Source of the DNA: Flavimarina sp. Hel_I_48
GTDB lineage: Bacteria; Bacteroidota; Bacteroidia; Flavobacteriales; Flavobacteriaceae
Direction of reading: 5' to 3'
NCBI RefSeq assembly: GCF_000733945.1
Contig: NZ_JPOL01000002.1
Span: 2,419,001-2,483,000, forward strand
DNA length: 64,000 nucleotides
Made by a program: the position numbers and the translations under genes. Position 1 is the stretch's first letter. Each line of letters opens with the position of its first letter. Positions 49,695 to 63,070 of this stretch are shown here, piece by piece. The notes beneath the pieces were generated by a model. That model did no database searches. It saw nothing but the letters and a program-made list of their open reading frames with translations, and had not been told where the DNA came from.

Positions 49695-49760
49695 CCCTCG
49701 CATTTTCAGTGATGGGGATGCAGGTTTTACAGCGAGTCCTAAGTGTTGTAAAATAAAGTT

Positions 49761-49799
49761 GCAGGCGTGGTGGAATTGGTAGACACGCTAGACTTAGGA
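49761..49799 (+). pseudogene. 5'-half copy of tRNA-Leu
   Basis: The 39 nt match the first half of the intact tRNA-Leu (49834-49872) except at one acceptor-stem and two anticodon-stem positions. The match ends immediately after the anticodon loop (GACTTAGGA). No variable arm, T arm or 3' acceptor strand follows. Confidence 0.85.
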
Positions 49800-49833
49800 C
49801 ATAGCGAAATATAAAGTGTTAAAATATTAAAAT

Positions 49834-49915
49834 GCGGGCGTGGTGGAATTGGTAGACACGTCAGACTTAGGATCTGATGCCGCGAGGTGTGGGAGTTCGA
49901 GTCTCCCCGCCCGTA
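49834..49915 (+). tRNA. tRNA-Leu(TAG)
   Basis: 82 nt. The acceptor stem GCGGGCG pairs with CGCCCGT; the anticodon arm is TCAGA-CTTAGGA-TCTGA with anticodon TAG; a long class II variable arm follows; the T arm GGGAG-TTCGAGT-CTCCC is normal. CCA is not encoded. The 3' end is the probable integration site of the adjacent conjugative element. Confidence 0.96.
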
Positions 49916-49916
49916 C

Positions 49917-49996: not shown

Positions 49997-50151
49997 TTTG
50001 CTAATTTCAGGGCAACATTTGTATTGATGTCAAATATTTCTATTTGTTATTAAACCCTATTAATTTTCTGGTAAAATAATAAATTCTGCTAAATAGCAAC
50101 CTTATTACTTCGTAAGGGGGAGTTTATTATCATACAATATAACCGCAATTT

Positions 50152-50282
50152 AAACTCGTAAAATACTTCCATCAAAAGACTACGGCATAAAGCCAATGCT
50201 CTTTCCAACGCTTATTTATTCCGTTTCCTTTTGAGCCAAGATTTTATCTTCCGTTTGGTTTCTGCTCAAATATTGTTTAATC
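50152..50282 (+). promoter_or_regulatory. 131-nt leader repeat, copy 1 (before ParB-like gene)
   Basis: One of three gap-free 131-nt copies (others 52203-52333 and 58779-58909). CAAAAGACTACGG can pair with CCGTTTCCTTTTG, and TTTGAGC with GCTCAAA; the two stems share CTTTTG, so they exclude each other. A 16-nt central segment varies in sequence but not in length. It ends 15 nt before the ATG. Weaker similarity extends about 35 nt further upstream. Confidence 0.8.
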
Positions 50283-50297
50283 AAAAATTTGAGTATT

Positions 50298-52085
50298 ATG
50301 ACAACAAAAGCGAGTACCACAAAGCAGCGCAGTAGAGCGAAATCTACTGTCAAGAAAGAAGTAAACGGAAAGAAATCATCCATTCTTCAAATTCAGAACT
50401 TACAATTGGGCAAAATCAAGCCTGACCCGGAACAGCCAAGAAAGACTTTTAACGAGAATGCATTAAAGCAGCTTTCTGAGAGTATCGAAAAGCACGGTGT
50501 GTTACAGCCAATCACGGTAAGACAACAAAATGGCCATTTCATCATCGTGATGGGCGAACGTCGATATCGTGCCAGTAAATTGGCAGGAAAGAAAACGATG
50601 CCCTGTATCGTTAGTGCTTATGAGAACAATGATGTGCTTGAAGTTCAGATTATCGAAAACCTGCAAAGACAGGATGTCGAACCGACCGAAGAAGCTGAGG
50701 CGATTGCTTACCTAAGTGAGAAATATGAGCCTACCGAAATTGCAAAGCGATTGGGTAGGACAGATAACTTCATCAGACAGCGTCTAAAATTAGCTGGATT
50801 GATTGACGGTTTCAAGCAATTTGTACGCAATGGCGAAATGACCATATCATTGGGTGTCGGTGTAGCGCTCTTTGAACCGGAAGAACAACAAATGATGTTG
50901 GAAACAATGGGCGAAGATTTTAACGCACATCAGATAAACAGGATGATTAAAGACCAGACCTATGATTTGGAAAAAGCGTCTTTTGATGTAGCTGATAAAA
51001 AATTGGTTTCGAAAGCTGGGTCTTGTGTAGAATGTCCGTTCAATGCAGCCAATCAAGGCAATCTGTTCGGCGATGGTAAAATGGTCTGTACGAAAGCAGC
51101 TTGTTTTGAAACGAAGAAAAGCAAATCGTTCTTGAACCTGATTGAAAAGTCCAAGAAAGAGAATATCCTTTTAATCCCTGAAATACGACAATATTGGGCA
51201 GATGACGAAAGTAATCAGCTCATAATATCACAATTGGAAAAGAACGGATTGAAAGTCTATCTACTGGACGATGTTGAAATCATAGAAAATCCTATTGAAC
51301 CTACCCTAGAGGCGATTCAGAAAGAATATCAACACTATGATTATTCCGAAGATGAAATCAAAGCAGAGTTGAGCGAGGCGTTACAGAATTATACAGAAGA
51401 ATTGGAAAAATTCAATTCAGCAAAAGAAAATGGATTTAAAAACGGCATCGTATTCCATCCCGATTCATTCCAGCACAAGGAAATCTTTGTAAAGATTGTC
51501 GAAAAATCTAAGAACGATTCTATGGAATACTCGGCACCATTGGCGAATAGAAAAATGGCGGACTGCACGCCTGAAGAGCAAATCATTAAAATCAACGAAA
51601 GGGAAATCCGCAAGAAGCAAATAGAGAACAACAAGCAGTTTGAAGAAGTTGTCCAGATGATTCGAGAAACAAAATACATTGATACGAAGAAGACACTTTC
51701 AACAGACGAAATGGTCGCATTCTCGATATCGCTCTTTGAAAATAATGTGGACTATATGAGCCAGCAAAAGTATTTCTCAAAGTTCTTGTGCGACACTTCA
51801 AAGATGACAAAAGTTGAAATGGTTGAGAATTTCAAGAAGAAGTTCAAAAAGGAAATCTTTCACAAGTTAATACGCTATATGCTCACAAAGCAAGTGCATT
51901 TTAGCGAAAGCAATCACGTCAATAATCTGACCAACATTTCATTCTACAAAGCAATGCAAGGATATTATAAATCCAAGATTGCCGACATTGAAAAAGAATA
52001 TACCGAAAAGAGGGACAAGCGTGAAGCACGTTTGAAAGAGCGCATCACAGTTCTTGAAAAGCAAATTGAGGAACTCAACGATTAG
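50298..52085 (+). CDS. ParB/RepB/Spo0J-like protein of the conjugative element
   Basis: A 595-residue protein from the ATG at 50298; a TTG 9 nt earlier is less likely because the leader repeat keeps a fixed distance to the ATG. The N-terminal ParB/Srx domain is clear: KIKPDPEQPRKTF, LSESIEKHGVLQPITVR and VMGERRYRASKLAGKKTMPCIV, then a KorB/HTH-like part (TEIAKRLGRTDNFIRQRLKLAGLI). A cysteine group (CVECPF..CTKAAC) near residue 240 may bind metal. The long Lys/Glu-rich C-terminus has no recognised domain. Element maintenance or gene control is likely. A terminator follows. Confidence 0.88.
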   Translation: MTTKASTTKQRSRAKSTVKKEVNGKKSSILQIQNLQLGKIKPDPEQPRKTFNENALKQLSESIEKHGVLQPITVRQQNGHFIIVMGERRYRASKLAGKKTMPCIVSAYENNDVLEVQIIENLQRQDVEPTEEAEAIAYLSEKYEPTEIAKRLGRTDNFIRQRLKLAGLIDGFKQFVRNGEMTISLGVGVALFEPEEQQMMLETMGEDFNAHQINRMIKDQTYDLEKASFDVADKKLVSKAGSCVECPFNAANQGNLFGDGKMVCTKAACFETKKSKSFLNLIEKSKKENILLIPEIRQYWADDESNQLIISQLEKNGLKVYLLDDVEIIENPIEPTLEAIQKEYQHYDYSEDEIKAELSEALQNYTEELEKFNSAKENGFKNGIVFHPDSFQHKEIFVKIVEKSKNDSMEYSAPLANRKMADCTPEEQIIKINEREIRKKQIENNKQFEEVVQMIRETKYIDTKKTLSTDEMVAFSISLFENNVDYMSQQKYFSKFLCDTSKMTKVEMVENFKKKFKKEIFHKLIRYMLTKQVHFSESNHVNNLTNISFYKAMQGYYKSKIADIEKEYTEKRDKREARLKERITVLEKQIEELND

Positions 52086-52138: not shown

Positions 52139-52202
52139 ATGATAATGTTTTGAAAGATGGGTTCATAAGGAAGGGGGTATCAATCAATATCAGAGCAAAG
52201 GT

Positions 52203-52333
52203 AAACTCGTAAAATACACCCATCAAAAGACTACGGCATAAAGCCAACGCAACATCCTACGCTTATTTATTCCGTTTCCTTTTGAGCTGTGATTTTAGCT
52301 TCCGTTTGGGTACTGCTCAAATATTGTTTAATC
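52203..52333 (+). promoter_or_regulatory. 131-nt leader repeat, copy 2 (before DUF932 gene)
   Basis: Same length and order as copy 1. Both stem pairs are unchanged; the inner part of the second hairpin differs (CTGTG for CCAAG on one side, GGGTACT for GGTTTCT on the other), as does the central 16 nt. It ends 14 nt before the ATG at 52348. Confidence 0.8.
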
Positions 52334-52347
52334 TAAATTCAAAAGCT

Positions 52348-53184
52348 ATGTATTTACAAAATTTGCAACAGGATGAAATTTTCGTGTCATCAGAAATGAA
52401 ATCCTTAAAAAGTCTGACACAGATGGAATCCCGAAGAGGGCTTGAAAATGCCATTATCTCAAATGGCAAAATCGTTAACGTCGTATCGAACAGCTACGGT
52501 CACATTCCAAATCAACTGTTCTTCAAGAAAGCTGAAGAAATGCTGACTGATGCACAACTGAACTTCCACAAACGCACCATCAACAAAAATGATAGGTCGT
52601 TCATTACTGACTTTATTATCGACGACAAAAGCCAGTTTACAGTCAAGAACCATAAGGACTTGATATTGCCGATGCTTCGGTTCAAGAATTCGTATGACGG
52701 AAGTGAAAAGACCTCTGGACACTTCGGTTTTTATAGAGAAGTATGCTCAAATGGTCTGCACGTGTCACAGGCTGAAATCGAGTTTTCCATAAAGCACAAT
52801 AAGAACAATACGCACTTGATTATGCCGAGGCTGAACAATCTATTCGATAAATTTCTGGACAATGAATTCTATACCATTACCAAGAAATTCGACAAGATGA
52901 AAGAATTTAAAATCATCGATACACAGGAATTTGTGAAGGCGATTCTTGACAGAACGAAACTGTTCCGATACGAGTGTAGCGACAAGAACAGCGACCCGTC
53001 GAAAAAATCTCGTGAGGTCATAGAAATCTTGAACTATGAAGCCTTGTTGCTCAATGAAGAACCAAATCTGTGGTTAGGTTACAATGCGTTCAATTCAGTA
53101 CTTCATAATGTCTTAAAGAAAAGTTTCGGTCAACAGGAACGATTGGACAAGAAACTGTTCGATGAAGTTTATGCGATGGCATAA
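52348..53184 (+). CDS. DUF932 family protein
   Basis: A 278-residue protein from the ATG at 52348; a longer in-frame start (52282) would lie inside the leader repeat. DUF932 (phage/plasmid-like protein) features: PMLRFKNSYDGSEKTSGHFGFYREVCSNGL, a conserved core with R-x-x-C-x-N-G, and a late NLWLGYNAFNSVLHN. Members occur on plasmids, phages and conjugative elements, often near ParB-like genes; their function is unknown. It has the same leader repeat as the ParB-like gene and so is probably controlled together with it. Confidence 0.85.
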   Translation: MYLQNLQQDEIFVSSEMKSLKSLTQMESRRGLENAIISNGKIVNVVSNSYGHIPNQLFFKKAEEMLTDAQLNFHKRTINKNDRSFITDFIIDDKSQFTVKNHKDLILPMLRFKNSYDGSEKTSGHFGFYREVCSNGLHVSQAEIEFSIKHNKNNTHLIMPRLNNLFDKFLDNEFYTITKKFDKMKEFKIIDTQEFVKAILDRTKLFRYECSDKNSDPSKKSREVIEILNYEALLLNEEPNLWLGYNAFNSVLHNVLKKSFGQQERLDKKLFDEVYAMA

Positions 53185-53199
53185 CATCAATAAAGGTTC

Positions 53200-53228
53200 A
53201 TCCAGTACCTTAAACTGGATTTTTTTTC
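53200..53228 (+). terminator. Terminator of DUF932 gene
   Basis: ATCCAGT-ACCTTAA-ACTGGAT followed by a T run. Confidence 0.85.
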
Positions 53229-53283
53229 ATTTCAATATGATGTTCTTTTGGCAAATCCCAATAATTTCTATTAGAAATAACCA

Positions 53284-53359
53284 TTTCAAATATTTACCAC
53301 TTTATTGACATAGTGGCGATAATTAGTTTTCAAATATTCGCCACTTTTTTGTATTTTTG
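53284..53359 (+). promoter_or_regulatory. Promoter with repeated operator before the AbiE-like operon
   Basis: TTTCAAATATTTACCACTTT (53284-53303) and TTTCAAATATTCGCCACTTT (53328-53347) are direct repeats 44 bp apart, and CCACT..AGTGG between them is a dyad. The -7 box TATTTTTG is at 53352-53359, just after the second repeat. This suits autorepression by the AbiEi-like protein. Confidence 0.7.
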
Positions 53360-53380
53360 GCAAAGTTTTGATATTGTATT

Positions 53381-54148
53381 ATGCCAAAAATTATAGAAAA
53401 CAAGCTTATAGAAGCGTTTAAAGAGCAAAGTTCCTTTGATAGGGACCAGCTATTTCAGTTTTATTTGGACCTTGAACCGGATTTGAAGGAAAGTACATTT
53501 AGTTGGCGCATTTACGACCTGAAGAAAAAAGACATCATCAAAACTATTGGTCGTGGATTGTATGTTATATCCCATAAACCCAAGTATAGACCAGTACTGT
53601 CTGATAGTGTTCTAAAAATAGCAAGTAAGACCAATGAACGGTTTGAGGAAATCCAATATGCTATATGGGAAAACCAATGGCTAAATGAATTTACTCTGCA
53701 TCAAGTATCCAATCAAATGATTGTAGTAGAAGTGGAAAAAGAATTTACAGAATCACTATACTATTATCTCAACGATTCGTTGAAAATGGATTTTTTCTTG
53801 AATCCCGATGACAAGGAAATTGAATTCTACATTTCCGAGAGTGCTGTCCCCGTGGTCATAAAACGTCTCGTCACCAGAGCACCGATAAGTAAATTGAAAG
53901 ACAAAAAAAATTTAGTTCCAGTCGCCACACTTGAAAAAATAATGGTGGACTTGTTTGCCGATGAAAACCTGTACCATTTTTACCAAGGCTCTGAACTCAT
54001 AAATATTTATGAAAAGATACTTGAGCGATACAGTATTAATTTCACAAAGCTCTTTAGCTATGCGAAAAGACGAAAGAAAGAACAGGAAATCAAGCAATTT
54101 ATGAATAACCACATACCGAATATTTTAGAGGACATAATCAATGATTGA
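53381..54148 (+). CDS. AbiEi-like antitoxin/regulator
   Basis: A 255-residue protein. The N-terminus (IENKLIEAFKEQSSFDRDQLFQF..SWRIYDLKKKDIIKTIGRGLYVI) is a winged-helix segment of the type found in AbiEi antitoxins, followed by an alpha/beta domain. It overlaps the AbiEii-like toxin gene by 8 bp and starts just after the repeated operator. In type IV AbiE systems AbiEi represses the operon and AbiEii halts growth upon phage infection. The family call rests on the N-terminus and on the partner gene. Confidence 0.72.
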   Translation: MPKIIENKLIEAFKEQSSFDRDQLFQFYLDLEPDLKESTFSWRIYDLKKKDIIKTIGRGLYVISHKPKYRPVLSDSVLKIASKTNERFEEIQYAIWENQWLNEFTLHQVSNQMIVVEVEKEFTESLYYYLNDSLKMDFFLNPDDKEIEFYISESAVPVVIKRLVTRAPISKLKDKKNLVPVATLEKIMVDLFADENLYHFYQGSELINIYEKILERYSINFTKLFSYAKRRKKEQEIKQFMNNHIPNILEDIIND

Positions 54149-55244
54149 AAACAAAAGCTTCACAAAAGAGTGGCTGGGTATTTTTCGGTCAAAAAAAGAA
54201 CATAAAGGCATTAATGTGACCATTTTGGAAAAAATGGTTCACGCATTTTCATTGTTGGAACATCTAAAAATAGAAGGACTTGATTTTGTCTTTAAAGGGG
54301 GCACTTCACTGGTGCTTTTACTTGAAGAAGGCAATCGGTTTTCAATAGATATCGATATTATTTCGAGTGTAGAGCGTGACCCATTGGAAAAAATCCTTGA
54401 TGCGGTTGTTGCCAACTCACATTTTAAAAGCCACACTTTGAATGAACGTCGAAGTTATAAAGAAGGCGTTCCAAAGGCACATTATACTTTTGAATTTGAT
54501 TCAGATTACAACCCGAACGTTCCAGGAACCATTCTGTTGGATATTCTTTTTGACAGCCCACATTATCCAGAGCTCATAGAATCTTCCATTGAAATTCCTT
54601 GGCTATCGGTTAATGAGCCTATAATATCAATTACCACACCTTCGGTAAATTCCATCTGTGGCGACAAGCTTACTGCTTTTGCGCCAGAGACCATCGGTAT
54701 TCCATATTATAAGGGCGACCAGTTATTTGCAATGGAAATCTGTAAGCAATTGTTCGATTTAGGAAAGCTATTTGAAAACATTACGGCTATGGCAATGGTT
54801 AAAAAAAGCTTTTCAGCTTTTGCGAAAGCGGAACTATCATATCGCAGTTCGGATAAAGATTTCAGCGGCAGAAACCTCAAAGAAACAGATGTGCTTTGGG
54901 ATGCCATAGACACCTGTGCCATCATCGCCAAAAGGGAACGTAACCCAACCAAGGAAACAAAAAAGAAGTTTGACGAATTAAACCGTGGCATACGCAGTTT
55001 TGGAAGTGCATTTCTTATGACGGGAAATTTCAGAATAGAGGAAGCCCTTGCAGCTTCTGCCAGGGTAGCTTATTTGAATGCTATATTGTTGCAAGATGAG
55101 ATAACAGAAATTGAATATTACAAAGGACAAGACATAAGTAAACTTAACATTGAAAAAGCAGATTGGGCATTTTTGAACAAACTAAAACGACAGCCAGATA
55201 AAAGCATATTTTATTATTGGTATAAGGCGGTGGAATTACTATAA
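54141..55244 (+). CDS. abiEii: AbiEii-like nucleotidyltransferase toxin
   Basis: A 367-residue nucleotidyltransferase of the AbiEii/AbiGii family. The active-site motif is visible: KGGTSLVLL (residues 52-60) with GG-T-S, then RFSIDIDI (66-73) with the catalytic Asp70 and Asp72. Such toxins (for example MenT and AbiEii) add nucleotides to tRNA or other targets and arrest growth. It is preceded by its AbiEi-like partner with overlap and followed after only 10 bp by a membrane-protein gene, so the four-gene run 53381-58318 is probably one transcript. All key residues look intact. Confidence 0.85.
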   Translation: MIENKSFTKEWLGIFRSKKEHKGINVTILEKMVHAFSLLEHLKIEGLDFVFKGGTSLVLLLEEGNRFSIDIDIISSVERDPLEKILDAVVANSHFKSHTLNERRSYKEGVPKAHYTFEFDSDYNPNVPGTILLDILFDSPHYPELIESSIEIPWLSVNEPIISITTPSVNSICGDKLTAFAPETIGIPYYKGDQLFAMEICKQLFDLGKLFENITAMAMVKKSFSAFAKAELSYRSSDKDFSGRNLKETDVLWDAIDTCAIIAKRERNPTKETKKKFDELNRGIRSFGSAFLMTGNFRIEEALAASARVAYLNAILLQDEITEIEYYKGQDISKLNIEKADWAFLNKLKRQPDKSIFYYWYKAVELL

Positions 55245-55254
55245 ATATGAAGAA

Positions 55255-57534
55255 ATGAATCTAAAATATATAATAGAAATATGCATTGGGATTGATATAG
55301 CCATTATTGGTATCGCTTATCCTATAATAATTGATAAAATATCGAATATTGGAAATAGGTATGACTCAAATTATCTTTCCGAAGTTTTTGAACAAGAATT
55401 TCCACAAAGGGCATATGGTCGCATTTTGCCATTTCGGAGCAGGAAAGTTACCACTTTCGAATGGCTGTTGTTCTTCACTATCGCATCATTTGCCTTTTTG
55501 ATTGCAGGTGCCGAACCATTATTTTGGAAAAACTCAATATGGATGCAAAATTCTGCAAAATTATTGACATTAACTCTTACCTTTTTTCTTGTAATATCCT
55601 TTATAATCTGGCTTGACAAAATAGCGTTATACAACGGAAAACCAGCTCGCCTATTGAAATATCTGATTGCGAAATATCAATCAATTTCAAAAGAAAGTAG
55701 ATATAAAGAAAACCTTATCAATTCACTTAACGAGATAGCCTATTTCGCTGTAGAAAAGGAGGATATCCATTTACAAGAGGAATTGAGTAAGTTTTATACT
55801 GAAGAGTTTATTAAAATTCGTCATAATCATAATTCAAGCGAAGCTTTAGAATATCCATTTTATTTTTATGATGTAACCCGTAAGCTAATTAAAAAATTGC
55901 TTCGGAAAGAAGTTTCTGAATTGGATAGATTGACATCTCCCGCAGTATCAAATTGGTGGTTGTTGGGACAGGATTTTCAGGAGATTCCAATATCAGAAAA
56001 AACGTATGATAGTATGTGGGGCAATATCTATCAGATTTCCGACAATGCAAAGTTTATAAAGGAGCATTGGAGCACTGCACACCAATATTATAGATTTCAA
56101 TTAGGGAGGAAAACTGGCAAATACAACATCGATATTAGAGATTATGAGAACAAGGAGGAAATTGAAATAAGAGAAAGTGAACAGATAAGATTTTTAGAGT
56201 TTCACTATGCATTGGGTGGCTTGTTATTGTATCGTCAAAACAATAATGGACTAAAACGAATTCTAAATTTCACACAAAGTCAGCCGCCAGATTATTACCT
56301 ATTGCCTAACTCTATGTATGACATATTCTACTGGTTTGCCTATTTTAAAGAAGGGTATGTAAACAGAGTTACGCCTACAGATTTTAAATACCCATTTCCA
56401 GACATTGATAATTTAGGCCTCTCACGACAAATAACCTTTTGGATTTGTCAATATGTATGTTTGCTTTTTATAAGACAATTTTTCTTGCAACCCTATTATA
56501 CGTTTCATCAATTTACCGAACAACCAAGATTGCCAAATAAAGTACTTGAATTACTTAAATGGAAAGATGCTTTGGACTATTTCAAGTTTTGTTTAAACAA
56601 AATATTAGAGAATAAAGACTTATTGGATTTACTGGGCTATAATTTGTCAGATGCTATTTTTGAGGATATAGAAGGTTTTGAGCCTGAATTACGAATTAGA
56701 ATTGAAGAGCAAATTCAACAGAATAGAACAAATGCACCATTATCTGATAATAAAATCAATCAATTTTTGGCCAGCAGTTCAACGATGATAGACGACGCAT
56801 TTAATCAGTACAGCCTCATAATAAATAAAGATGATTTTGCAAATGATGAACCTGTGATGCGATTCGGTCTAAATGGAGGTTCCATACTTTTCCGAAAAGA
56901 AGGTTTTACAGAAGGAGACATACCACATCTAAATTATGATTCGATATTTGCACAACAAATCATTTATGACCAAATCAATCGATATATTCCAAACTCTTTC
57001 CTCGGAGCGAGAACACGTAGATACTTAATAGACAGAGAAAACTTTGAAGATGCGTTTAAAAGATTAAAATACGATAAAGAGAAACATCTAATTGTAGGGT
57101 TTGGTTTTTTCGACAATGGTTTAGTCGAAATACCTGATTTCCTTGAGAATATGATTAGGTTGACTTCGCCAGTTTTTACAAATGTACTATTCGTTCTGCC
57201 AAAGACTGACCTTCCGAGAATTAATCATCCAGACCTCAAAGCTGATGAGATTAAAGAACTGCGTCTTGAACCAATTATACCAGACAGAAACGTATATGCC
57301 TCTGTAATCGACTTGAATCTTGATGAGAATAGTGAGTTGAGACAACGCTGGAACACAAATGAAAATCAAAATCCAGCGGAATCTGTACAATTAACAATTG
57401 CATTCATCGCAGAGATTATTTGGAGACAAAATAGAGATGTCGTTCAGTTGAATATCACTTCGCCACTACGTGAACAAGGTATCAAAAATGATTTAAGCGA
57501 TATTGTTCCTTTCAAGACCATTGAAAATGATTGA
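55255..57534 (+). CDS. Unrecognised 759-residue membrane-anchored protein
   Basis: Three membrane segments at residues 5-27, 68-87 and 102-121, then about 640 residues that would lie in the cytoplasm. The large part is rich in aromatic and charged residues with mixed helices; a C-terminal region (near residues 615-690, HLIVGFGFFDNGLVEIP.. and VLFVLPKTDLPRINHP) reads like an alpha/beta fold. No catalytic motif or family is recognised. It starts 10 bp after the AbiEii-like gene and overlaps the arginase-like gene by 8 bp, so it is made together with them. The N-terminal build resembles membrane-anchored effectors of phage defence systems, which is inference only. Confidence 0.85.
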   Translation: MNLKYIIEICIGIDIAIIGIAYPIIIDKISNIGNRYDSNYLSEVFEQEFPQRAYGRILPFRSRKVTTFEWLLFFTIASFAFLIAGAEPLFWKNSIWMQNSAKLLTLTLTFFLVISFIIWLDKIALYNGKPARLLKYLIAKYQSISKESRYKENLINSLNEIAYFAVEKEDIHLQEELSKFYTEEFIKIRHNHNSSEALEYPFYFYDVTRKLIKKLLRKEVSELDRLTSPAVSNWWLLGQDFQEIPISEKTYDSMWGNIYQISDNAKFIKEHWSTAHQYYRFQLGRKTGKYNIDIRDYENKEEIEIRESEQIRFLEFHYALGGLLLYRQNNNGLKRILNFTQSQPPDYYLLPNSMYDIFYWFAYFKEGYVNRVTPTDFKYPFPDIDNLGLSRQITFWICQYVCLLFIRQFFLQPYYTFHQFTEQPRLPNKVLELLKWKDALDYFKFCLNKILENKDLLDLLGYNLSDAIFEDIEGFEPELRIRIEEQIQQNRTNAPLSDNKINQFLASSSTMIDDAFNQYSLIINKDDFANDEPVMRFGLNGGSILFRKEGFTEGDIPHLNYDSIFAQQIIYDQINRYIPNSFLGARTRRYLIDRENFEDAFKRLKYDKEKHLIVGFGFFDNGLVEIPDFLENMIRLTSPVFTNVLFVLPKTDLPRINHPDLKADEIKELRLEPIIPDRNVYASVIDLNLDENSELRQRWNTNENQNPAESVQLTIAFIAEIIWRQNRDVVQLNITSPLREQGIKNDLSDIVPFKTIEND

Positions 57535-58318
57535 ATTCAGAAACCCATATCACATAGAACCACCAGGTGTTTCACGACAAATATTATCGCATCCAACAAA
57601 TGAAACTGAAGCAATAGAACTTGCAGTATTTCAAGAACATCGATACGCATTTTTCTATTGGAACAAATGGATGCGTAAAAATGAAAATACTAATCCACCT
57701 TGTTTGGTTTCGCTAGACTGGCATCAGGATTTATGCTACCCTTGTGAAACAGAAAAAGAATGGTTAGATAAATTAGATTTAACGAGTGATGCAGAAGTGT
57801 CTTTATTCTCTTGGGCAAAACTGGCTGGAAATAATGACGGTCATATTCTATGTGCTGCCTATCTCAATTTGATTGGGGATATCTATGTGCATTGCAGGCA
57901 AGCTTCCTTTCCAGATGCTTGGAAAGATGAAGAATTGATAGATAAGTACGGCAACAAACATACTATCAAAAAATTCAAAACTTTTGACACATTACAGGAT
58001 GATTTATTGAATTCATCAGAAACATCTGTATTTTTTGATATAGACTTGGACTTCTTTTCGATAAAGAATGGCTTAAGTGATGGTTCTTTTGAATTTACCT
58101 ATCTACAGGAACAAGAAATACGTACAATGTTAGATAAGGACAATCCATTAATTCATTGGATTTTTGAACGTTTAAAAGGATTTACTATCGCAACAGAACC
58201 AGAACATTGCGGTGGACTTTTAAGAAGTAATAAGTTTCTTGATTTAATTAGCAAAATCTATTTCAGTCCAGAATTGTTTGCACCTAAATGTAATTGGAAA
58301 TGGAAACCTAAATATTGA
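57527..58318 (+). CDS. UPF0489-like, arginase-fold metalloprotein
   Basis: A 263-residue protein from the ATG at 57527 (overlaps the upstream stop by 8 bp; an earlier TTG at 57503 lies deeper inside that gene). The arginase/ureohydrolase metal ligands are present in order: EHRY (37-40), SLDWHQD with D-x-H-x-D at 64-68, NNDGH with His106, and FFDIDLDFF with D-x-D-x-D at 171-175. Glu224/Glu226 follow. UPF0489 proteins include peptide arginases that turn arginine residues into ornithine. Here it ends a cargo operon with an AbiE-like pair and a membrane protein. Metal-dependent guanidine or amide hydrolysis is inferred; the substrate is unknown. Confidence 0.75.
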   Translation: MIEFRNPYHIEPPGVSRQILSHPTNETEAIELAVFQEHRYAFFYWNKWMRKNENTNPPCLVSLDWHQDLCYPCETEKEWLDKLDLTSDAEVSLFSWAKLAGNNDGHILCAAYLNLIGDIYVHCRQASFPDAWKDEELIDKYGNKHTIKKFKTFDTLQDDLLNSSETSVFFDIDLDFFSIKNGLSDGSFEFTYLQEQEIRTMLDKDNPLIHWIFERLKGFTIATEPEHCGGLLRSNKFLDLISKIYFSPELFAPKCNWKWKPKY

Positions 58319-58346
58319 TGATGAATTGAATCGATAATAATACGGC

Positions 58347-58520
58347 CATTCAGCCCATTCCCCTACATTCCGCGAAAAGCTATATTTCAGGCAAAGCGCT
58401 TCATTAAAACAAGTCTTGGACACAACTATAAAGCTTCCGATTTCCTTTCCACTTGCCCACTCATTCCCAAGAAAATCGGGAAGTGGTCAAACTCCATTTC
58501 AACCTACACCTTTCAAGTTA
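58347..58520. repeat. Element-specific intergenic repeat R, copy 1 (degenerate)
   Basis: Contains the core TTCAGCCCATTCCCCTACAT followed by TCCGCGAAAAGCTA, and TCTTGGACACAA, as in copies 2 and 3, but is more diverged. No gene is seen in it. Confidence 0.65.
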
Positions 58521-58556
58521 AGTCCGCTTGACGTTCTACTTCAAAAGGATATACAG

Positions 58557-58737
58557 TTTTCATAATTCGTTCAGCCCAGTCCCCTGCATTTCGCGAAAAG
58601 CTACATTCCGGGAAAAGAGCTTCTCTGGACAGGTCTTGGACACAATCCCCAATTTCGACTTTCCATTCCGTTAACCCTTCCGCTATGCTGGAAAGTAACA
58701 CTACATTCCCTTGCCAAAATCGTGAATCAAGTCCGTT
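58557..58737. repeat. Element-specific intergenic repeat R, copy 2
   Basis: Matches copy 3 (59161-59342) over about 180 bp: GTTCAGC, CCCCTGCATTTCGCGAAAAG, GAGCTTCTCT, GGTCTTGGACAC, CCCCAATTTC, TTTCCATTCCG, AAAATCGTGAA. On the minus strand it reads as a 62-codon frame, and copy 3 encodes a similar text, but this follows from the repeat. Confidence 0.75.
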
Positions 58738-58778
58738 TAAAAAAGGAAGTTAATTATCATACAATATACACGCAAGGT

Positions 58779-58909
58779 AAACTCGTAAAATACTTTCATC
58801 AAAAGACTACGGCATAAAGCCATCTCTTCTTCCCTCGCTTATTTATTCCGTTTCCTTTTGAGCCAAGATTTTAGCTTCCGTTTGGTTTCTGCTCAAATAT
58901 TGTTTAACC
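58779..58909 (+). promoter_or_regulatory. 131-nt leader repeat, copy 3 (before 52-codon gene)
   Basis: Same 131-nt length and stems as copies 1 and 2; closest to copy 1, with a different central 16 nt. It ends 15 nt before the ATG at 58925. Confidence 0.8.
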
Positions 58910-58924
58910 AAAAATTTTAACATT

Positions 58925-59083
58925 ATGAAAAATACAACTGTAAAATCCGACATTTCATTGCAAGAAGCAGAAGAACATTATCAATTGAGTAGTGAAAATT
59001 ACACTATTGAAAGTGCGGAGAGTCATTTAGCTTACTACAGAGAAAAGCATCCCCTTTACTACCAAGTATTAAGTAATGTTTAA
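58925..59083 (+). CDS. Small 52-residue protein behind leader repeat
   Basis: ATG to TAA frame beginning MKNTTVKSDISLQEAEEHYQ, rich in Glu, Ser and Tyr, with a YYREKHPLYYQVL end. The 131-nt leader repeat precedes it at the same distance as in front of the ParB-like and DUF932 genes, which is the main reason to believe it is translated. No family is recognised. The leader suggests joint control with element maintenance genes. Confidence 0.6.
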   Translation: MKNTTVKSDISLQEAEEHYQLSSENYTIESAESHLAYYREKHPLYYQVLSNV

Positions 59084-59160
59084 TCTGAAAATCAGAAAGA
59101 ACCTTTTGTAGAATGAGATAACTACTCACCAAAGTAATATTAACCTTTTATTGAATACGA

Positions 59161-59342
59161 ATTTCATAACCCGTTCAGCACATTCCCCTGCATTTCGCGA
59201 AAAGCTACATTGCGGGAAAAGAGCTTCTCTAAATAGGTCTTGGACACCATCCCCAATTTCTACTTTCCATTCCGCTAACCCGATCCGCTGCGCTGGAGCG
59301 GAACGCTTCATTCCCAATCCAAAATCGTGAACGGAGTCCGCC
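59161..59342. repeat. Element-specific intergenic repeat R, copy 3
   Basis: Third copy of repeat R, downstream of the 52-codon gene. It carries an inner TCCGCTGCGCTGGAGCGGA palindrome not seen in copy 2. Confidence 0.75.
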
Positions 59343-59765: not shown

Positions 59766-60110
59766 ATGAGTACTTTAAAAAATCACGTACAGTTAATCGG
59801 AAACGTTGGACAAGAGCCAACAATCACGAACCTTGAAAGCGGAAAAAAAGTAGCCCGTTTTTCAATCGCAACAAACGAGTATTACAAGGATGCCAAAGGC
59901 GAAAAGCAAACCGAAACTAATTGGCATACCGTTGTAGCTTGGGGCAAGACTGCCGAAATTATTAAAAAATATGTTGATAAAGGCAAGGAAGTAGGTGTTA
60001 CGGGAAAACTGAAATCCCGAAGCTACGAGGATAAAGAGGGTATCAAGCGATATGTTACCGAAATCGAAGCAAATGAAATCCTTTTGCTTGGAAGCAAAAA
60101 TGATAAGTAA
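59766..60110 (+). CDS. ssb: Single-stranded DNA-binding protein, copy 1
   Basis: A 114-residue OB-fold protein that coats single-stranded DNA, useful during transfer of the element. Typical start NHVQLIGNVGQEPTITNLESG, aromatic DNA-contact positions (TNWHTVVAWGKTAEII), and end KRYVTEIEANEILLLG. The acidic C-terminal tail of chromosomal SSB (DDDIPF type) is missing, as in many mobile-element SSBs. A closely related second copy lies 74 bp downstream, each with its own terminator. Confidence 0.93.
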   Translation: MSTLKNHVQLIGNVGQEPTITNLESGKKVARFSIATNEYYKDAKGEKQTETNWHTVVAWGKTAEIIKKYVDKGKEVGVTGKLKSRSYEDKEGIKRYVTEIEANEILLLGSKNDK

Positions 60111-60184: not shown

Positions 60185-60529
60185 ATGAAAACTATTAAAA
60201 ATCACGTTCAGTTAATTGGAAACATTGGGCAAGACCCACAGGTTACAAATCTTGAAAATGGAAAAATTGTGGCGCAGTTCTCAATGGCTACAAATGAAAA
60301 TTACGAAGACTCAAAAGGGCAGAAGCAATCGGAAACCCATTGGCATAGTATTGTGGCTTGGGGAAAACTTGCTTCAATCATTGAGAAATATGCAGTAGTA
60401 GGAAAACAAATTGCCATTGCGGGCAAATTGGCGCAACGCTCTTATGAAACCAAGGAAGGCGAAAAACGATACTATACCGAAGTTGTAGCAAGAGAAATTC
60501 TTTTGCTCGGGTCTAAAAATGGTAAGTAA
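60185..60529 (+). CDS. ssb: Single-stranded DNA-binding protein, copy 2
   Basis: A 114-residue paralog of the preceding gene, same length and same motif order (NHVQLIGNIGQDPQVTNLENG; THWHSIVAWGKLASII; KRYYTEVVAREILLLG). It also lacks an acidic tail. The two copies differ at many residues but have no gaps, which points to an old tandem duplication with both kept. One may serve transfer and the other replication or recombination, but nothing in the sequence shows which. Confidence 0.93.
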   Translation: MKTIKNHVQLIGNIGQDPQVTNLENGKIVAQFSMATNENYEDSKGQKQSETHWHSIVAWGKLASIIEKYAVVGKQIAIAGKLAQRSYETKEGEKRYYTEVVAREILLLGSKNGK

Positions 60530-62038: not shown

Positions 62039-63070
62039 ATGTACATTACAATCACACCTCAAAAAATAGGAGGTAATTATTCTAAAAGTTCGGCTGATTT
62101 TGTTGGCTATCTGGAGAAGGAAAATCAAGGATTGGAACAGCAGGATATGGAGCATTTCTTTAACCAAGATGGCGACGAGATTTCAGCAGAAGAAGTGGTC
62201 AGGGAAATAGACGGCAATACTGCAAAACTTGAAAAACACGAACCACGGTTTTATTCTATTACCGTAAGCCCATCTAAATACGAACTCAAACGGTTGCAGA
62301 ATCATAGTCAAGATTTGCAAAAATACACCCGTGAGATTATGAAGGATTATGTGGCTTCATTTAATCGCGAAATCAATGGGCGACCCATTAACATCGATGA
62401 TATTAAATATTATGCAAAAATTGAACATCAAAGGACCTTCAAAGGCACGGACTTTCAGATAAAAGAAAACCAACCGTATGCTACAAAAATACTTCAACTA
62501 AAAACTGAAGTCCGAAATGTGCAAGAAGGGCGAGCGGAAGGAAATCTAAAAAAAATGGAAAAAGAGATTGGGAAACTAGAAAGAGAAGCACCGCACCAAC
62601 AGAACGGAAAACGAATAGTACAGGGAATGCAAAAGGAGGGCAGCCAAAGCCATATTCACATCATTGTGAGCCGTAAGGATGTTTCCAATAAATTCAGTTT
62701 GTCACCTGGAAGTAAATATAAAGCTTCCGACGTTGAATTAAATGGTAAAACGGTAAAACGGGGATTTGATAGAGATGGGTTTTTTGAGAAAGCAGAAAAG
62801 ACTTTTGATAAGACTTTTGGCTATCAAAGGAACTTCGCTGAAACCTATAAAGCAAGAAAGGATTTTATCAAGAATCCGAAAATCTATTTTGCTTCACTAA
62901 TGAAACTGCCCACCAACGAAAAAGCATTGGCGTTCAAAATAATGGGGAAAAGTGGCATCCCGATGATGCCGAGTATTCCAGTTACACAGGCACAATTGGC
63001 AATGAAAATTTTTAATAGGCTACGACGTGGTGCGGAAGTGGCCATCAAATCGAGTTCCATCGGAATCTAA
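62039..63070 (+). CDS. DUF5712 mobilization protein (relaxase-type)
   Basis: A 343-residue protein of the DUF5712 / BfmC-MobB group found with BfmA in Bacteroidetes elements; expected to nick DNA at oriT. The N-terminus MYITITPQKIGGNYSKSSADFVGYLEKEN is typical. The histidine-rich SQSHIHIIVSRKD (near residues 201-213) resembles the HxH metal-binding motif III of relaxases, and RFYSITVSPSKYE supplies strand and tyrosine candidates. The catalytic tyrosine is not pinned down. It lies 9 bp before the coupling-protein gene. Confidence 0.85.
   Translation: MYITITPQKIGGNYSKSSADFVGYLEKENQGLEQQDMEHFFNQDGDEISAEEVVREIDGNTAKLEKHEPRFYSITVSPSKYELKRLQNHSQDLQKYTREIMKDYVASFNREINGRPINIDDIKYYAKIEHQRTFKGTDFQIKENQPYATKILQLKTEVRNVQEGRAEGNLKKMEKEIGKLEREAPHQQNGKRIVQGMQKEGSQSHIHIIVSRKDVSNKFSLSPGSKYKASDVELNGKTVKRGFDRDGFFEKAEKTFDKTFGYQRNFAETYKARKDFIKNPKIYFASLMKLPTNEKALAFKIMGKSGIPMMPSIPVTQAQLAMKIFNRLRRGAEVAIKSSSIGI

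Follow-up and report, generated by a model that had tools for sequence, protein, structure and literature searches.

The 64,000-nucleotide window analyzed here (Flavimarina sp. Hel_I_48, contig NZ_JPOL01000002.1, positions 2,419,001 to 2,483,000) carries a four-gene operon in which an AbiE (abortive infection) toxin-antitoxin pair is followed by a membrane-anchored protein, gene 3, and by a UPF0489/peptide-arginase-family protein, gene 4. We tentatively read it as a composite antiphage (abortive-infection) operon that resides on a mobile element and whose exchangeable component is a capsid-like sensor or decoy anchored in the membrane, an interpretation that we consider quite possible while stopping short of calling it probable. 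Its defense role is argued from genomic context, without a background control, and we infer the mechanism. The parts of the operon are the following.

53281..53380, + strand: operator/promoter region, with TTACCAC, GTGGCGA, and TCGCCAC at -87, -68, and -43 from the abiEi ATG
53381..54148, + strand: abiEi, AbiEi-type antitoxin/autoregulator, DUF6577, 255 amino acids (PF20217, PADLOC AbiEi)
54141..55244, + strand: abiEii, nucleotidyltransferase toxin, 367 amino acids (PF08843, PADLOC AbiEii)
55255..56643, + strand: gene 3, N-terminal part, residues 1 to 463 (AlphaFold2 model, hydropathy, and a separate 472-residue open reading frame, or ORF, in split relatives)
56737..57465, + strand: gene 3, C-terminal domain, residues about 495 to 737 (predicted HK97 capsid/encapsulin fold)
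57527..58318, + strand: gene 4, UPF0489/peptide-arginase-family protein, 263 amino acids (metal ligands H38, D64, H66, D68, D173, and D175)

All four ORFs lie on the + strand (53381-54148, 54141-55244, 55255-57534, and 57527-58318). abiEi and abiEii overlap by 8 bp, a 10-bp gap separates abiEii from gene 3, and gene 3 and gene 4 again overlap by 8 bp, in agreement with the tight packing described in an initial annotation that was made from the sequence letters. A terminator-like hairpin is found at 53200-53220, after the gene preceding the operon (2 hairpins in the region versus a shuffle mean of 3.1), and promoter- or terminator-like sites within the operon were not commoner than in shuffled sequence.

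The assignment of the first two genes is straightforward. abiEi matches PF20217 (E, 3.4e-75; 252.7 bits versus a cutoff of 27.8) and the PADLOC AbiEi profile PDLC02235 (E, 1.5e-94), while abiEii matches PF08843 (E, 1.1e-18; 68.5 bits versus a cutoff of 22.5) and the PADLOC AbiEii profile PDLC02299 (E, 2.7e-130). Adjacent genes that each match their own profile are expected of an AbiE system, and the Pfam and PADLOC profiles thus bear out the AbiEi/AbiEii pair named at the outset. The AbiEii sequence contains KGGTSL and SIDIDI stretches, which we take to be nucleotidyltransferase motifs; a search for a relative of solved structure gave none at E values up to 0.01. The window resembles known AbiE systems in gene order, in the overlap of the two genes, and in the repeated elements of the promoter region but differs by the two further genes after the pair, AbiE itself being described as bicistronic (PMC3985639). 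Here, the pair is part of a larger operon, with four overlapping or abutting genes in the window and three in loci L108 and L111.

The promoter elements follow a slightly degenerate pattern, GTGG[CT][GA]A / T[TC][GA]CCAC, which was applied to the window and 13 other loci. All three elements recur with identical mutual spacing in 10 of these 13; two are present in L072 and L108, and none is present in L085, where the DUF6577 gene has a different gene arrangement. The repeated operator proposed initially therefore has evenly matched counterparts, with constant distances, in front of abiEi in related operons, and AbiEi may autoregulate through these putative promoter repeats.

Gene 3 was surveyed at 57 loci in named genomes with fetched flanks of up to 8 kb, many of them shortened by contig ends, in which AbiE and gene 4 were sought with window-derived queries at E values up to 1e-4; two of the loci, L057 and L063, are near-duplicates. 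At 19 of the 57 (L016-L019, L035-L046, L067, L068, and L072), abiEi and abiEii lie directly upstream of gene 3, and 15 of these 19 have gene 4 as well. The contig of L038 ends before the gene-4 position, and L067, L068, and L072 show AbiE with the first part of gene 3 only and no gene 4 in view. The slot between abiEii and gene 4 accordingly contains a fused, split, or truncated gene 3 or none, the last at L108 and L111, where gene 4 directly follows abiEii. The split form is found at 12 loci (L035-L046) as a 472-residue ORF followed by one of 302 or 303 residues, the 12th being cut by a contig end, and at all four junctions inspected the second ORF opens with an ATG of its own, located one base past the TGA stop. 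We rejected a sequencing frameshift as the origin of this form, given the second ORF's own ATG and the presence of the same split at 11 loci. Gene 3 is broken at other places in L065, L066, and L070, which may be an effect of assembly or decay. In a tree of the 18 distinct sequences among 23 AbiEii proteins, the fused, split, truncated, and empty types form one well-supported group of 10.

The proteins of the window and of L043 are 91% (AbiEi), 91% (AbiEii), and 87% (gene 4) identical but only 52% and 43% identical in the N and C parts of gene 3, whereas L043 and L036 share 81%, 85%, and 83% in the same three proteins and as much as 93% and 86% in the two parts of gene 3. Such discord between gene 3 and its neighbors indicates, at the level of sequence comparison, that gene 3 is swapped as a cassette between a constant AbiE front and a constant gene-4 back.

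The same data bear on a different account, in which three independent modules would share one promoter, AbiE acting as an addiction module for the element and gene 3 and gene 4 being passenger defense genes that do not cooperate. We regard this as possible, though doubtful. At the other 38 of the 57 loci, gene 3 occurs with neither AbiE nor gene 4 in the fetched flanks, gene 4 is found without gene 3 at L108 and L111 and in other defense-type contexts, and exchange of the gene-3 allele does not follow that of the neighboring genes, all of which suits independence. More reshuffling would be expected of loose passengers, however, and both the order and the overlaps are kept in the four fused loci L016-L019 and in the 11 split loci whose sequence extends to gene 4, with the same operator elements in those of them that were examined.

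The initial annotation had also proposed that gene 3 and gene 4 form a coupled membrane-protein/arginase module, and this did not survive. Conservation of the pair was checked with and without AbiE: none of the 38 gene-3 loci without AbiE has gene 4 in the fetched flanks, and each gene also occurs without the other, so that in this 57-locus sample the two are never a pair elsewhere, an outcome which that annotation had named as speaking against its proposal. The other such outcome, an occurrence mostly in core metabolic contexts, is not what we find.

Where gene 3 stands alone, its neighbors are mixed, some being of defense type and some housekeeping. At L024 it lies inside a type I restriction-modification operon (order HsdM-HsdS-gene 3-HsdR); an Eco57I/type IIG enzyme gene comes after it at L049 and L055, SIR2 and Argonaute genes at L052, and an nSTAND protein gene at L020. 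For the 38 AbiE-less loci, 131 neighboring genes were collected, no more than two from each side and none encoding fewer than 90 amino acids; among them, the commonest Pfam families in the best 25 of 124 were N6_Mtase and helix-turn-helix, with 3 each; PADLOC returned 300 families at E values up to 1e-6, with heavily overlapping models. The defense-type setting claimed at the outset is thus seen for gene 3, and likewise for gene 4 (see below), in several other genomes. Gene 3 is rare in the sampled whole genomes (10/149 and 7/221, own genome and fragments included). A separate observation concerns a gene pair encoding proteins of 136 (NOV_C, PF13020, weak) and about 252 (no Pfam family) amino acids, e.g., at L037:4802-5974, which 12 of the 57 gene-3 loci have a short distance to either side of the AbiE operon.

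Hydropathy and the AlphaFold2 model (predicted local distance difference test score, 84.3) place hydrophobic helices of gene 3 at about residues 3-30, 67-84, and 100-127, in line with the three-transmembrane protein expected, followed by an all-helical region; near residue 393, a further hydrophobic stretch is barely above the same threshold. The C-terminal domain is predicted to adopt an HK97-like fold, which the initial annotation did not include. In Foldseek, its model matches encapsulins over their whole length, and encapsulin folds are the closest structures. The PDB library is not the cause of this match, because the gene-4 model retrieved arginases and not HK97 folds from the same library. 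When full-length relatives of other alleles are compared with the window's gene 3, the C part is less well conserved than the N part in 32 of 32 (identity; smallest gap, 0.26 versus 0.24), which fits, but does not prove, what would be expected of a recognition domain. Using the whole gene-3 profile, a match was obtained to the designed helical repeat protein 7rdr (E, 1.3e-8; residues 156-193), with no stretch passing alone, which is taken as a helix-repeat effect. Pfam, PADLOC, and NCBIfam offered nothing usable to place gene 3 in a known Abi family, and the gene-3 relative P0100, although labeled "Phage abortive infection protein" in UniRef, has no listed Pfam domain to which that name could be traced.

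Gene 4 scores 22.9 bits against a cutoff of 27 for PF12640 and 36.5 against 350 for the NCBIfam peptide-arginase model, in both cases below the threshold; PF12640 is precomputed on many of 120 listed homologues, some of them 87% identical. The predicted model has the OspR-like fold, and its search of the PDB library led to arginases, so the arginase-fold protein of the initial annotation is supported by structure prediction, with a weak UPF0489 profile match. All six ureohydrolase metal ligands are invariant in 17 of 17 aligned sequences, consistent with a predicted arginase-type active site. The substrate would be a guanidino group, most likely that of an arginine side chain in a protein or peptide. 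Compared with the described peptide arginases (PF12640/UPF0489; OspR and FlmR/OhkR), gene 4 of the window falls below both curated cutoffs and has its place in defense-type loci, no search for clusters of ribosomally synthesized and posttranslationally modified peptides having been aimed at its surroundings.

In whole-genome samples that overlap in part, gene 4 was found in 8/149, 3/395, 9/397, 10/395, and 2/226 genomes, own genome included, and in 1/64 genomes of another family. Four plasmid records carry it: in two Hymenobacter plasmids it is beside BREX (bacteriophage exclusion), one copy being fragmented, in a third plasmid it is beside DUF6577 and type I restriction genes, and in an Aliarcobacter plasmid it lies behind an SEC-C protein gene and a Lit-family gene. 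At L089, gene 4 is flanked on one side by AbiH with a 232-residue ORF and on the other by genes whose domains are PAPS reductase, DndE, and DndB; at L090 it is divergent from a JetA-like gene; and at L124 a relative is near an integrase. No phage records were found in the search for gene 4, and no viral contig was confirmed to carry either gene 3 or gene 4. The sole setting of gene 4 that looks core-like belongs to a single distant family within the phylum (L114-L122, 9 genomes), where a DUF3095 gene occurs in 6 of the 9 fetched gene-4 loci, adjacent or within about 5 kb (two by Pfam, the remainder by similarity); this is perhaps a housekeeping branch of UPF0489. As side observations, UPF0489 genes beside BREX (L084:6977-7786), Dnd (L089:8122-8916), and JetA-like (L090:8208-9029) genes constitute a recurrent defense link, and at L124:7774-8541 a 255-residue protein with an HNH-like start by eye and no Pfam match overlaps the end of the gene-4 relative.

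Several results weigh against a capsid-like, defensive gene 3. The best HK97 match in Foldseek has an E value of 6.2e-3, with none at or below 1e-3, and is a structural match only. A 30-sequence profile of the C-terminal domain retrieved 10 proteins, none of them named a capsid or encapsulin, and its best solved structures were DNA primase small subunits (E, 0.006; about 39 residues). No PADLOC model fits gene 3, with 1 of 18 members at an E value of 0.008 and none of 10 further members. Its neighbors include housekeeping genes (RpoB domain, LptF/LptG, CbiM, and exonuclease VII, one each), and the counts of defense neighbors for gene 3 and gene 4 stand without a background rate. The truncated gene 3 after AbiE in L067, L068, and L072 shows that it can be lost, gene 3 of G086 has a further break in its N part, and no experiment on any of the four genes was found. 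The fold-related points suit the explanation that the HK97-like match arose by chance or from a wrong model, gene 3 then being a membrane effector of some other fold: Foldseek E values exceed 1e-3, no sequence support for HK97 was found, and the structure is one predicted model from an 18-sequence alignment. We consider this unlikely. The encapsulin folds are matched over their whole length, as described above, and the lack of a sequence link to capsids or encapsulins is weak evidence because the search reaches only relatives that share exact 5-residue words.

If the HK97-like fold is real, gene 3 might form an encapsulin-type compartment, with the arginase-like enzyme as its cargo. Encapsulin folds are indeed the closest structures, an enzyme gene lies directly downstream, and an HK97 fold together with selective cargo uptake marks encapsulins (PMC8346489). 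The domain shares with encapsulins the shell-protein fold in the predicted model, but it lacks a sequence link to them, no encapsulin Pfam family being found among 18 gene-3 members at E values up to 1, and it sits behind a helical N terminus with three transmembrane segments, in mobile and partly defense-type loci. Gene 4, moreover, does not look like a dedicated cargo enzyme: it was not found in the fetched flanks of 38/38 AbiE-less gene-3 loci and occurs elsewhere without gene 3. Its C terminus is also the same in the window and in L108 and L111, which have no gene 3, so no gene-3-specific targeting tail is apparent. A compartment of this kind therefore seems highly improbable. The Mesorhizobium Family 3 encapsulin, with 4 to 5 predicted transmembrane helices in a C-terminal extension, differs from gene 3 in both architecture and context (PMC8346489).

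The surroundings of the operon contain the following further features.

49834..49916, + strand: tRNA-Leu, inferred to be the probable left border of the mobile element, with metH and sulfite reductase relatives to its left
50118-50304, no strand assigned: leader repeat copy of a 187-nucleotide family, reference copy
52169..52355, no strand assigned: leader repeat on the upstream side of the operon (73% identity with the copy at 50118)
58745..58931, no strand assigned: leader repeat on the downstream side of the operon (89% identity with the copy at 50118)

The mobile element probably begins at the tRNA-Leu, of which a tandem partial copy of the 5' half is found at 49760-49800, just before the intact gene. 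The claim that the operon is cargo on such an element is supported by the gene at 62039-63070, whose product is related to plasmid proteins that carry the annotation MobB relaxase or DUF5712 (33% identity for the closest). As originally described, the operon lies between two leader copies, at 52169 and 58745. The 187-nucleotide copies matched no Rfam family and may serve the element as a common regulatory leader; those at 50118 and 52169 immediately precede or overlap the beginnings of two genes, one ParB-like and one DUF932. Repeated blocks of 63, 127, and 57 nucleotides flank the third copy (58346-58735 and 59155-59340), and tandem 114-residue ORFs at 59766-60110 and 60185-60529, whose DNA is 71% alike over 273 nucleotides, presumably resemble single-stranded DNA-binding proteins.

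Taken as a composite antiphage operon, the module would combine a constant frame, in which the type IV toxin-antitoxin pair AbiE comes first and the UPF0489 ureohydrolase last, with a variable gene 3. AbiEi would repress the entire operon from the promoter repeats. The HK97-like domain may bind or coassemble with phage capsid protein, or another oligomerizing phage component, at the inner membrane, and virion assembly would then be poisoned or the membrane helices clustered so that the cell is permeabilized. AbiEii would supply growth arrest, and gene 4 might hydrolyze a guanidino group. Capsid recognition, the membrane effector step, and the cooperation between the parts are all conjectural. 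Conceivably, gene 3 represents a family of membrane-anchored immune proteins with a domesticated or mimicked HK97 fold that sense or poison virion assembly through coassembly with the invader's capsid protein at the membrane and that, in AbiE operons, serve as cassettes exchanged between the toxin-antitoxin pair and an arginine-modifying enzyme, although we think this rather unlikely.

For capsid sensing, the nearest comparison is an immune protein that we presume to be CapRel. Its activation by a phage capsid protein is reported (PMC9712102); the trigger would be shared if gene 3 is indeed a sensor, but that protein responds to the capsid, whereas gene 3 would itself be capsid shaped. The words arginase and AbiE are absent from the main text of a 2026 BREX survey (PMC12839542). 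Among the literature matches listed, judged by titles and abstract starts, no HK97-fold defense protein system was seen, and none linked arginase to antiphage defense, subscription literature being mostly outside that search. We know of no described defense protein with a membrane-tethered virus-shell-like domain.

If both the fold and the role hold, bacteria would use a membrane-tethered virus-shell-like domain against viruses. The UPF0489 family, which includes human C5orf22, a protein of unknown function (PMC10028609), would likewise gain a recurrent defense setting. Furthermore, capsid sensing would become testable in a compact, naturally swappable module, for which nature already offers fused, split, and truncated forms as well as operons that lack it.
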